NCBI GenBank assembly: GCA_024281135.1
Contig: JAMXLG010000262.1
Location: 1 to 9,913 of the forward strand
Direction: 5' to 3'
DNA from: Vulcanimicrobiia bacterium
GTDB lineage: Bacteria > Eremiobacterota > Eremiobacteria > Baltobacterales > Baltobacteraceae
DNA: 9,913 nt
In this document: one piece after another, positions 7,670-9,820 of the stretch
Layout of the letters: each line of letters starts with the position of its first letter
Numbering within the stretch: the stretch's first letter is position 1
Program-made: the position numbers and the translations under genes
Notes under the pieces: model-generated
What the model saw: only the letters and a program-made list of their open reading frames with translations
Told to the model about the DNA's origin: nothing
Database searches by the model: none

Positions 7670-8611
7670 GTGAAGCATTGGGCGATCGTTTCGATCGGCA
7701 CGAATTCGACGCGTGCCTTGATCGCGGACATGCAGCCGGACATTCCGCGCACTGAACTCTCGCGCGCGATCGGCACGCGCATCGGCGAGGGTCTGCGCGA
7801 ACGCGGCCACCTCGGCGATGAACCGGTACAACGCACGCTGGACGCGATTCGCGATCACATGCGAGCAATACGCGGCCACTACATTCGCCTCTATGCAGTT
7901 GCGACGAGTGCGCTGCGACGCGCGGACAACGGCGACGTCTTTGCGGAAGCGGTTCACGACCTGATTGGCGTTCCGCTGCGCGTGCTGAGCGGAGATGAAG
8001 AAGCGTCCGGATCCTATCGCGGCGCGATCACAGCGTTCGGTCAACTCCACAGCGAAGAAGTGGGCGTGATCGATACCGGCGGCGGCAGCACTGAATATGC
8101 GATCGGTGCGGGCCATTCTCCGGAACGCACGGTTTCATGCGAAATCGGCGCGGTACGATTGACGGAAGCGGTCCCCGAGCTTGCGGGGCGTGATTCGACC
8201 GTAGATCTCGATACGATCGAGCGCGCGCGAAAGATCGCGCGCAACGCGCTTGCACCGATCGGTGATTTTCGTAACGTCGAGCGCCTCGCGTTTGTCGGTG
8301 GTTCGGCGACGACGGCTGCGCAAGTTGCGTTCGGGAAGAAGACGAAGATGGATCGCGTCGAGATGACGCGCGCCGACATGCAGCGTGCACTCGTGCGATT
8401 ATGCGGAATGACGTATAGGGAGCGCCGCGAGATCGTGGGCATGAAGCCACATCGCGCGGACATCCTGCCGGCAGGCATCATCGTGCTCGAAACAGCCCTC
8501 GACATTCTCGGCCACGACCGCGCCGTAACGACGACCGCCGATTTGCTCGTGGGCTACTTGCTTCAACAGCGCGACCGCCAACCGATCACGGCACGCGCCA
8601 TCCCTCACTAA
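7670..8611 (+). CDS. ppx: Ppx/GppA-family phosphatase (exopolyphosphatase type)
   Basis: A 313-residue ASKHA-fold phosphatase of the Ppx/GppA family, which removes terminal phosphate from inorganic polyphosphate or hydrolyses pppGpp. Signatures: 'SIGTNSTR' (8-15, phosphate 1 loop), 'YAVATSALRRADNG', 'LSGDEEASGSYRGA' (from 106) and 'VIDTGGGSTEYAIG' (133-146, phosphate 2 loop). A late 'FVGGSATTAAQVAFG' and 'DILPAGIIVLETALDILG' complete the core. This is the short two-domain form without the C-terminal HD-like region of E. coli Ppx. The start is a GTG at 7670, since any later start would cut the first phosphate loop. There is no clear ribosome site; it follows the S1-like gene by 14 bases. Polyphosphate versus pppGpp preference cannot be read from sequence. 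Confidence 0.9.
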   Translation: MKHWAIVSIGTNSTRALIADMQPDIPRTELSRAIGTRIGEGLRERGHLGDEPVQRTLDAIRDHMRAIRGHYIRLYAVATSALRRADNGDVFAEAVHDLIGVPLRVLSGDEEASGSYRGAITAFGQLHSEEVGVIDTGGGSTEYAIGAGHSPERTVSCEIGAVRLTEAVPELAGRDSTVDLDTIERARKIARNALAPIGDFRNVERLAFVGGSATTAAQVAFGKKTKMDRVEMTRADMQRALVRLCGMTYRERREIVGMKPHRADILPAGIIVLETALDILGHDRAVTTTADLLVGYLLQQRDRQPITARAIPH

Positions 8612-8637: not shown

Positions 8638-8658
8638 CCGCCACCCCGGAGTGGGCGG
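8638..8658 (+). promoter_or_regulatory. GC-rich hairpin over the DUF2630 ribosome site
   Basis: In the 48-base gap after ppx, CCGCC (8638-8642) pairs with GGCGG (8654-8658). After a bulged G8653, A8643-C8644 pair with G8651-T8652, leaving a six-base loop. The GGAG at 8648-8651, the best ribosome site for the next gene, is mostly in the loop. No T-run follows, so this is not a standard terminator. A role in mRNA processing or translation control is inference. Confidence 0.3.
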
Positions 8659-8659
8659 G

Positions 8660-8902
8660 ATGGACGACAAATCGATTCAGGCCCACATCGAGGAGCTTGT
8701 GACCGAGGAGCATCGTTTGCTCGAACATGGCGACAGCCATAAGTTGACTCCCGACGACCGCAAGCGTCTCGAAGCCGTGCAGGTACAACTCGACCGCTAT
8801 TACGACCTCTTACGCCAACGCCGCGCGCGCCGCGATGCAGGACAAGATCCCGATATCGCGCACATGCGTTCGGCAGACACCGTCGAACACTATCAACAGT
8901 AA
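8660..8902 (+). CDS. DUF2630 family small protein
   Basis: An 80-residue, highly charged, mostly helical protein beginning MDDKSIQAHIEELVTEEHRL. The pattern 'IxELVxEEHRLLE', then 'LTPDDRKRLEAVQVQLDRYYDLLRQRRARRDAG' (in pieces) and 'DPDIAHMRSADTVEHYQQ' matches what I recall of the DUF2630 family, which has no established function. The ATG at 8660 has GGAG 8 bases upstream and starts at the conserved motif; a GTG at 8651 would add three residues. It is soluble, with no signal peptide or membrane segment. The stop is 13 bases before the tRNA-Leu gene, so the tRNA may be cut from the same transcript. Confidence 0.72.
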   Translation: MDDKSIQAHIEELVTEEHRLLEHGDSHKLTPDDRKRLEAVQVQLDRYYDLLRQRRARRDAGQDPDIAHMRSADTVEHYQQ

Positions 8903-8915
8903 ACGGTCACTACCT

Positions 8916-9251
8916 GGGACGGTGGTGGAACTGGCAGACACAGCAGACTTGAGGTAACTCCTTGAGCCGCGCGTTGGGAAACTGCGTGCGGGATGCGCTC
9001 AAAGTCGGCGAACTCTACGTGCGCAAGCATAAGACAACGCCGAGCCAAGCTCGTCGCCCAAGCGACGTGAAGGTGTAGAGACTGGATGGGCGCGACCTAC
9101 CGGCGACCGTTACGACGATCGCTCACGGTCATGGCACAGTCCGGACCAACAAACATATTCGCGCTTTCGCGCGAACGTGGTAGCGAAAGCTATAGTGGTG
9201 CGAAAATTTGCCGCTCGAAAGAGCATGCGGGTTCGATTCCCGCCCGTCCCA
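8916..9251 (+). tRNA. tRNA-Leu(UAA), interrupted by a group I intron
   Basis: Exon 1 is 8916-8950 and exon 2 is 9203-9251. The joined tRNA is 84 nt before CCA, which is not encoded. Acceptor stem GGGACGG (8916-8922) pairs with CCGTCCC (9244-9250), with A9251 as discriminator. D-stem GTG (8925-8927) pairs with CAC (8939-8941). Anticodon stem GCAGA (8943-8947) pairs with TTTGC (9207-9211) with one G-U, around the spliced loop C-U-U-A-A-A-A, giving anticodon UAA. The long variable arm (GCTC-GAAA-GAGC, 9213-9224) marks a class II tRNA. The T-arm is GCGGG-TTCGATT-CCCGC (9227-9243). Leucine identity rests on the UAA anticodon, A discriminator and class II arm. The intron sits between U34 and A35. 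Confidence 0.93.
8951..9202 (+). ncRNA. Group I (IC3-type) self-splicing intron in tRNA-Leu(UAA)
   Basis: A 252-nt catalytic intron with no internal gene. P1: exon C8948-U-U8950 plus G8951-G8954 pairs with 8960-8966 (CCUUGAG), putting the conserved U-G pair at the 5' splice site (U8950-G8964). P2: 8967-8973 with 8985-8991, capped by a GAAA loop (8978-8981). P3: 8995-9000 with 9088-9093. P4: TCGGCG 9005-9010 with CGCCGA 9038-9043. P5: within 9011-9037, with a GCAA loop. P6: CGTCGC 9052-9057 with GCGACG 9062-9067. P7: GACTG 9080-9084 with CAGTC 9137-9141. P8: GACCGT 9105-9110 with ACGGTC 9125-9130. P9 region: hairpins at 9158-9175 and 9181-9192 (GAAA loop). The last base is G9202, as required. 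Segments such as ACGCCGAGCCAAGC and GAAGGTGTAGAGACT closely match, from memory, the Azoarcus tRNA-Ile IC3 intron. Confidence 0.93.
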
Positions 9252-9307: not shown

Positions 9308-9820
9308 ATGAGAAAGTCGAGGCACAGTGACGACGCTTATCGCGAAGCGATAATGCTAAGTAAATCCGCCGCACAAGCGCTGCGGCGACTTGGGCTTCGA
9401 CCGGCGGGCGGTAATTACGTACAAATGCGCGATCGAATCACCGCGTTGGGATTGTCGACCACGCATTGGACCGGAAAAGCTCATTTGCGTGGCAAGCGCA
9501 ATCCTCACGTCCCAAAAATCCCTCTGAGCGAGATATTGATCAAGCAGAGCGGATATCGCGGGAGCACGTCACTGCTTAAGCGGCGACTCATTGAGGCAGG
9601 CCTTCTCAATCAACGGTGTAGCAGATGCGAACTGGAGTCGTGGCTAGACGAACCTGTTTCACTGCATCTAGACCACATCAACGGCTCTCGCAATGATCAC
9701 CGTTTGGAAAATCTTCGCCTACTGTGTCCTAACTGCCATAGTCAAACGCCGACCTATTGCGGCAAGAACAAGGGGCGCGGCAAGCGCCTCAGTGAACTGG
9801 CGGGGTTGCTGCCTTCATAA
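9308..9820 (+). CDS. HNH endonuclease, free-standing, beside the intron-bearing tRNA
   Basis: A 170-residue HNH (His-Me finger) nuclease. The N-terminal part (about 5-60: 'SKSAAQALRRLGLRPAGGNY', 'RITALGLSTTHWTGK') looks like a small helical DNA-binding region found in a broad family of phage and bacterial HNH proteins. The middle 'LLKRRLIEAGLL' (89-100) leads to the nuclease core. Zinc cysteines are C104, C107, C140 and C143; the catalytic pattern is D122-H123, N135 and H144. The ATG at 9308 matches where relatives usually begin; ATG 9278 is also possible and neither has a good ribosome site. Codon use is less biased than in the housekeeping genes (for example CTA, TTG, AGC), which may indicate transfer. 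The DNA target and any link to the intron are unknown. Confidence 0.85.
   Translation: MRKSRHSDDAYREAIMLSKSAAQALRRLGLRPAGGNYVQMRDRITALGLSTTHWTGKAHLRGKRNPHVPKIPLSEILIKQSGYRGSTSLLKRRLIEAGLLNQRCSRCELESWLDEPVSLHLDHINGSRNDHRLENLRLLCPNCHSQTPTYCGKNKGRGKRLSELAGLLPS

Follow-up and report, generated by a model that had tools for sequence, protein, structure and literature searches.

Is the intron in the tRNA-Leu(UAA) gene of this contig an old possession shared across phyla, or did it arrive by transfer at the same site? The intron of tRNA-Leu(UAA) is a standard example of an intron that may be very old, and the title of a 1990 paper calls it ancient. The earlier note on this DNA left the choice open; our answer falls at two levels. 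Within one clade of Eremiobacterota the intron appears to be mostly inherited, while across phyla one ancient intron seems less well supported than a mobile family equipped with an HNH endonuclease and carried by phages. We consider it quite probable that the intron at this locus is functional and belongs to a mobile family, probably carried by phages and homed by the HNH enzyme. "The window" below is the whole 9,913-nt stretch; loci bear L numbers and genomes G numbers.

The split tRNA-Leu(UAA) gene and its intron

The earlier note proposed that 8916-9251 is a tRNA-Leu(UAA) gene in which a 252-nt IC3-type group I intron follows U34. This was confirmed at the sequence level, with ARAGORN (introns allowed) and the drawn helices in agreement. 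The tRNA region and its neighbors are as follows.

7670-8611, forward strand: ppx/gppA, conserved upstream neighbor (Pfam)
8651-8902, forward strand: DUF2630 gene, conserved upstream neighbor (Pfam)
8916-8950, forward strand: 5' exon of tRNA-Leu(UAA), through U34 (ARAGORN with introns; identical in the intronless loci L003 and L004)
8951-9202, forward strand: predicted group I intron, IC3 type, 252 nt, with terminal G (ARAGORN with introns; RF00028; drawn structure)
9203-9251, forward strand: 3' exon of tRNA-Leu(UAA), from A35 (ARAGORN with introns; T-arm scores 13.8 bits as tRNA)
9308-9820, forward strand: HNH endonuclease gene, 170 amino acids plus stop, starting 57 nt past the last tRNA base

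The ARAGORN call with introns allowed is tRNA-Leu(taa) i(37,252). Tools that expect an uninterrupted tRNA do miss the gene, as had been anticipated: default ARAGORN reports zero tRNAs in the 9,913-nt window, and Rfam at gathering scores gives no match there. The RF00028 search that the earlier note had proposed gave a mixed outcome. Its match to 8941-9164 spans the whole model (21.1 bits, E 0.0034) and falls below the gathering cut-off of 50 bits; since the genome of L001, an intron carrier, also misses that cut-off, this reflects the limited sensitivity of the model. Three syntenic loci (L003-L005) have an intronless tRNA-Leu(UAA), and so the exon/intron boundaries are fixed.

P1 with a U-G at the splice site, P2 to P9 and the terminal G can all be drawn on the window, as the earlier note had traced them by hand, and pairing across nine loci supports the helices. 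All elements lie on the forward strand.

8948-8966, forward strand: region of the splice-site U-G pair (U-G in nine of nine rows)
8967-8991, forward strand: P2, 8967-8973 with 8985-8991 (both sides changed in three of seven pairs)
8995-9093, forward strand: P3, 8995-9000 with 9088-9093, enclosing P4, P5 and P6 (drawn structure, nine-locus pairing)
Within P3, forward strand: P4, 9005-9010 with 9038-9043 (drawn structure)
Within P3, forward strand: P6, 9044-9046 with 9072-9074 (drawn structure)
9080-9141, forward strand: P7, 9080-9084 with 9137-9141, the expected guanosine-binding site (paired in nine of nine rows, invariant)
9094-9130, forward strand: P8, 9094-9097 with 9127-9130 (both sides changed in three of four pairs)
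9145-9199, forward strand: P9, 9145-9148 with 9196-9199, and hairpins 9158-9175 and 9180-9193 (GAAA loop)

The P5 region (9011-9037 only) is short and lacks P5abc, as in IC3; the IC3 assignment is made from this short P5 and from likeness to cyanobacterial tRNA introns. We examined covariation in nine intron-bearing loci including the window, with 95 pairs drawn by hand on the window. Across the nine, 95.3% of cells are paired, and 30 of the 95 pairs have changes on both sides (shuffled mean 15.7, all 500 shuffles lower). When the partner is shifted by 1-3 columns, pairing falls to 36-39%; this control is biased toward the structure because the latter was drawn on the window itself. The P3-P8 core is present with its P7, and P3 and P8 pairs covary; P4, P6 and P7 have no both-sided changes, P7 being invariant in all nine rows and therefore without covariation. 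The fit is poor in P6a (55.6% of cells paired) and in part of P5 (70.9%). The fold is more stable than that of each of 100 shuffles (z -4.16), and RNAalifold on the core alignment did not recover the group I fold. A terminal G ends 41 of 41 introns extracted by a pattern that itself demanded the G. Two other introns, of 346 nt (L001, 12912-13341) and 358 nt (L006, 12852-13293), share a similar extra P6 sequence that is absent from the window.

The acceptor stem, whose strands are split between the exons, also covaries across the nine loci, suggesting that selection acts on the spliced tRNA. An IC3-type intron at U34|A35 would be expected to self-splice, and the transcript would have to shed it to yield a tRNA reading UUA, a codon that accounts for 5 of the 221 leucine codons in ten window genes.

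Frequency and inheritance in Eremiobacterota

The earlier note judged the genome to be seemingly non-cyanobacterial. That judgment stands: the window AccA shares 92% identity with its counterpart in a Candidatus Eremiobacterota MAG, and its relatives comprise 13 loci at 71-92% identity, from Eremiobacterota or relatives, the next best reaching at most 57%. Eleven of these 13 loci extend to the tRNA; eight have the intron and three are intronless at the same place. Other window genes are hrcA and a GT2 glycosyltransferase (by Pfam) and dnaJ, rsmE, accD and accA (identified by reading).

We searched genomes with R1, a covariance model of the intron core built from nine loci with the window among its rows. 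Searches over more than 40 genomes scored 5-21 candidates per genome, and R1 tallies are therefore lower bounds. R1 matched at least 54 of 149 Eremiobacterota genomes, and in at least 50 the intron lies in tRNA-Leu(UAA), judged by the exons; the sole match in G025, G031, G032 and G083 is a tRNA-fMet intron. Among 198 relatives of G001, none matched in the 49 (by subtraction) beyond the phylum's 149. A pattern for intronless tRNA-Leu(UAA) matched 55 of the 149 genomes, with no overlap with the intron carriers, and 44 have neither. This pattern requires a GGGTTC T-arm, which some carriers do not have, so a second copy may go unseen in carriers; the second-copy question was addressed on genomes of relatives, standing in for the window's own species. 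Default annotation thus overlooks the sole detected UUA tRNA in about one third of the searched Eremiobacterota genomes.

The host tree was built on AccD and AccA from the window and 89 other regions; these come from 88 of the 133 AccD-positive genomes and were selected because their tRNA state was known and their AccD was nearly complete in length. In these 90 rows the intron is confined to one fully supported clade of 77 rows and is absent in the 13 rows outside it. Presence and absence require at least 19 changes on the tree, 14 of them forced by well-supported branches, against a shuffled mean of about 30. We compared introns with hosts for 34 of the 43 intron rows (eight failed two exon patterns, and G120 was omitted). 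Of the 34 introns, 28 have their closest counterpart in one of the three hosts nearest to their own (permutation mean 3.2, maximum 11), host kinship is not matched by the other six, and the overall correlation of intron and host distances is low (rho 0.23, p 0.002). Within this clade the intron would thus pass mostly from parent to offspring and often be lost or regained precisely, local transfer being possible.

Several other introns were seen in the phylum. L070, in G120, has a 188-nt tRNA-Leu(UAA) intron whose 3' part is off the usual pattern and which is possibly decayed. A second IC3-type intron, after U33, interrupts tRNA-fMet(CAU) at L064, L065, L066, L068 and L069; that of L064 encodes a PD-(D/E)XK endonuclease (PF11645, E 3.4e-50) close to PDB 2ost. 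In G003 a different group I intron (L029, 1025-1296; RF00028, 74.2 bits) lies in an apparent 23S rRNA gene.

The HNH gene, phages and other phyla

The HNH gene just past the tRNA does not figure in the earlier note. Its start codon was chosen from relatives of the gene; the open frame reaches back to 9086, through intron and tRNA. The protein scores above the cut-off for PF01844 and matches phrog_10822, and H123, N135, H144 and four cysteines are invariant in five HNH proteins. With 6434 proteins at E <= 1e-5 this is a large family, and in a tree of 125 of its members those of Eremiobacterota and Chloroflexota fall in separate parts. HNH matches of some kind occur in 63 of the 149 Eremiobacterota genomes, and in three cases the match begins at one of the first seven residues. 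In two of the three, G112 and G021 (54 and 57% identical), the gene directly follows an intron-bearing tRNA-Leu(UAA) on its 3' side. No HNH gene was found at 30 intronless loci (1.6-3.0 kb) or at L003-L005, making 3 of 51 intron-bearing against 0 of 33 intronless loci with HNH beside the tRNA, a difference that alone is not significant.

R1 matched at least 10 of 400 Chloroflexota genomes, in 12 places: four are tRNA-Leu(UAA) (L089, L090, L097, L098), seven have a CAU anticodon and one is tRNA-Tyr. At two of the four the HNH gene lies inside the tRNA-Leu(UAA) intron (L098 in sense, L097 in antisense), and the intron of L090 retains a remnant of the HNH gene's 3' part. The tRNA-Tyr(GUA) gene (L091, genome G162) has a 622-nt intron with an apparent open frame; G162 contains two further tRNA introns. 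At least 24 of 98 Cyanobacteriota genomes matched, in 30 places, of which 18 are tRNA-Leu(UAA), seven fMet and the remainder tRNA-Arg(CCU). In Omnitrophota at least 62 of 245 genomes matched; among the 31 loci read there (L254-L284), 29 are tRNA-fMet, and L272 and L281 look like tRNA-Asn(GUU). At least 13 of 396 Acidobacteriota genomes matched, and a 3'-exon pattern labels 11 of 15 loci there as tRNA-Leu(UAA), eight of them read through. In one Acidobacteriota genome, G1234, some 3 kb separate two tRNA-Leu(UAA) genes that both have the intron (L372, L378), and an intronless copy lies just upstream of one; both forms may thus coexist in a single genome.

Searches with the window's own gene gave five partial matches on plasmids of Klebsiella, Escherichia, Acinetobacter and Aeromonas, and no match in the phage collection. 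Klebsiella plasmid NZ_CP139688.1 (L032, 2426-2727) was read through and has an unannotated tRNA-Leu(UAA) with this intron type. At this locus, as at L033 on an Aeromonas plasmid, the intron-bearing tRNA is separated from an aac(3)-IId resistance gene by about 1 kb, which may hint at the source of the plasmid segment.

Phage contigs were scanned in two ways. The HNH alignment, used as query against viral contigs, yielded at least 79 loci, near-duplicates included. All 79 listed contain tRNA genes, and 55 contain tRNA-Leu(UAA) by ARAGORN with introns allowed. The R1 core is found at E <= 0.1 in 14 of the 79: seven are split tRNA-Leu(UAA) genes by ARAGORN, six more are so by reading (L340, L344, L348, L349, L360 and L328, the last cut at the contig end), and the remaining one, L317, has no tRNA type assigned. 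At six of these split genes (L306, L327, L342, L359, L361, L362) the HNH gene is contained in the intron, which is 679-776 nt long; at the other seven it lies beside the tRNA. The second scan, by core motif alone, yielded at least 80 viral loci; the 80 listed comprise 63 with a Leu(UAA)-type 3' exon, 40 of these having a matching 5' exon as well, one CAU, and 16 other.

Among isolates, Agrobacterium phage Atu_ph07 has a tRNA-Leu(UAA) with a 278-nt intron that is annotated as no tRNA; its paper gives 33 tRNAs by tRNAscan-SE, and the word intron is absent from the main text (PMC6102473). The uncultured phage LR756511.1 (595 kb) encodes the HNH protein within a 700-nt intron of tRNA-Leu(UAA). With 91.8% identity to an Eremiobacterota core and 87.8% to that of the window, the core of this phage intron is the closest outside Eremiobacterota among the matches listed; mean core identity to the window is 70.5% for cyanobacterial Leu introns and 74.4% for other phage Leu introns. 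Cores of the same type also occur seemingly in protein-coding genes of two viral contigs (L030, L031), and under an annotated capsid protein in Pelagibacter phage HTVC120P (MH598807.1, 19653-19807). The phage introns known by 2014 were, by a passage in a review of that year, all in protein-coding genes despite the many phage tRNA genes (PMC3984707).

Reading these loci together, we take the HNH enzyme as most likely the homing endonuclease of the tRNA-Leu(UAA) intron. It could instead be that the intron is functional and the HNH gene unrelated to it, the enzyme homing to tRNA regions generally with adjacency to Leu(UAA) as a by-product. The tRNA genes present at every listed viral HNH locus agree with this, as do the several loci where another tRNA is nearest (35 of 79 have a nearest tRNA other than Leu(UAA), although five of them read as split Leu(UAA) genes) and the many Eremiobacterota introns, the majority, that have no adjoining HNH gene. 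In three phage isolates inspected the HNH gene adjoins Leu(UAG), Gln or Phe, the last called with introns disallowed. But the nearest tRNA is Leu(UAA) in 44 of the 79 viral loci listed (37 intronless, seven split by ARAGORN), and the gene sits within tRNA-Leu(UAA) introns at six viral and two Chloroflexota loci, which makes an unrelated enzyme unlikely. One phage locus of the family is L500, Escherichia phage mistaenkt (grown on E. coli K-12 MG1655, a convenient laboratory system), where the HNH gene ends 1 nt before tRNA-Leu(UAG) in a tRNA array.

Origin of the intron and known systems

With structure, site, distribution and linkage established from genome sequences, the following course of events can be proposed. 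The intron would be a member of a mobile tRNA-Leu(UAA) family represented in phage tRNA genes as well as in several phyla. The HNH enzyme most likely cuts intronless tRNA-Leu(UAA) genes, repair of the cut gene would copy intron and HNH gene across, and phages would carry the intron between hosts. In other lineages the HNH gene may have moved into the intron, and its decay would leave the intron alone. The states that coexist today are HNH by an intronless gene (phages), HNH by the intron (the window, two more Eremiobacterota, phages), HNH inside the intron (Chloroflexota, phages), an HNH remnant (L090) and the intron alone.

A contrasting history has one ancient U34|A35 intron that predates the split of Cyanobacteria and Eremiobacterota and was lost in most other lineages, with the HNH genes as later passengers. 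Site and subclass are the same in both phyla, and inheritance inside Eremiobacterota is mostly vertical. In a first core tree the Eremiobacterota (95/88) and cyanobacterial (99/92) Leu introns form separate supported groups that are not sisters, the former falling to 87/84 with more Eremiobacterota rows; yet forcing the two together was not rejected (p 0.391, 0.303, 0.166), as an ancient intron would allow. These trees rest on 98 and 124 core columns, too short for deep forks. A single clade of all Leu introns was weakly rejected once phages were added (p 0.038, for a group chosen after the earlier trees), and three further observations speak against antiquity: the sparse occurrence in between, with Leu only 4 of the 12 places matched in 400 Chloroflexota genomes; the absence from the 13 Eremiobacterota rows outside one clade; and a closest outside core, among the matches listed, that is phage (87.8%), with cyanobacterial Leu cores averaging 70.5%. 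We therefore regard the ancient intron as decidedly unlikely. The last intron tree omitted L070, L359, L127, L128, L030, L031, L502 and a weak second L097 match, and kept every third Omnitrophota row; in it L097 fell among the Eremiobacterota introns at the end of a very long branch, a placement that was left unused.

It is very improbable that the insertion is decayed or assembly-made and does not splice, another tRNA reading UUA: the evidence is all genomic, most compared genomes are metagenome bins, and the GGGTTC requirement would hide a second copy of another kind, but the intron recurs in 50 independent genome bins with conserved synteny, has covarying helices and displays compensatory change across the exons.

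We thus return to a mobile, phage-carried intron with its HNH enzyme as the preferred reading. The same tRNA-Leu(UAA) site is occupied in Eremiobacterota, Chloroflexota, Acidobacteriota, a Klebsiella plasmid and many phage tRNA genes, and phage carriers with a linked endonuclease family would provide both vehicle and engine for transfer across phyla. The phage tRNA introns and the HNH linkage suggest how these long-puzzling introns spread. A wider conjecture, which we put forward tentatively and would not yet call probable, is that the tRNA-Leu(UAA) introns are one phage-carried family whose HNH (phrog_10822) was originally a free-standing neighbor; the cyanobacterial and plastid trnL intron would then be a settled branch that has shed the HNH gene, and no ancient relic. 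In the titles and abstract starts listed from the open-access literature we recognized no report of such introns in Eremiobacterota or WPS-2, of HNH with trnL introns, or of phage tRNA introns.

The closest known system is the cyanobacterial tRNA-Leu(UAA) intron, which has the gene, the U34|A35 site, the core motifs and an R1 match in common with the window; it differs in a core that is about 71% identical and in the strands of P9. The cyanobacterial intron is not known to contain an endonuclease gene. The tRNA-fMet intron with an enzyme of the PDB 2ost type, which we take to be the I-Ssp6803I type endonuclease of that intron, is alike in subclass, in its anticodon-loop site and in being mobile with an endonuclease gene, and it occurs in Eremiobacterota as well; it differs from the window's intron in its tRNA, in its site after U33 and in an enzyme that is PD-(D/E)XK and not HNH.

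The earlier note's list of bacterial tRNA introns proved incomplete, both because such introns are common in Eremiobacterota (at least 50 of 149 genomes) and because interrupted tRNA-Leu-TAA genes with a putative group I intron were already described in Beggiatoa BOGUAY and Thiomargarita (PMC4853749). These resemble the window in having the same tRNA split outside Cyanobacteria, a likeness drawn from the published description, which gives no subclass. As for the enzyme, the nearest parallel is SegB, a free-standing phage homing endonuclease whose gene adjoins tRNA genes and whose cleavage sites lie within them (PMC13096335). SegB and the window HNH share the arrangement of a free-standing enzyme gene beside tRNA genes; SegB is a GIY-YIG enzyme encoded apart from introns, whereas the window enzyme is an HNH protein (phrog_10822) linked to an intron-bearing tRNA-Leu(UAA).
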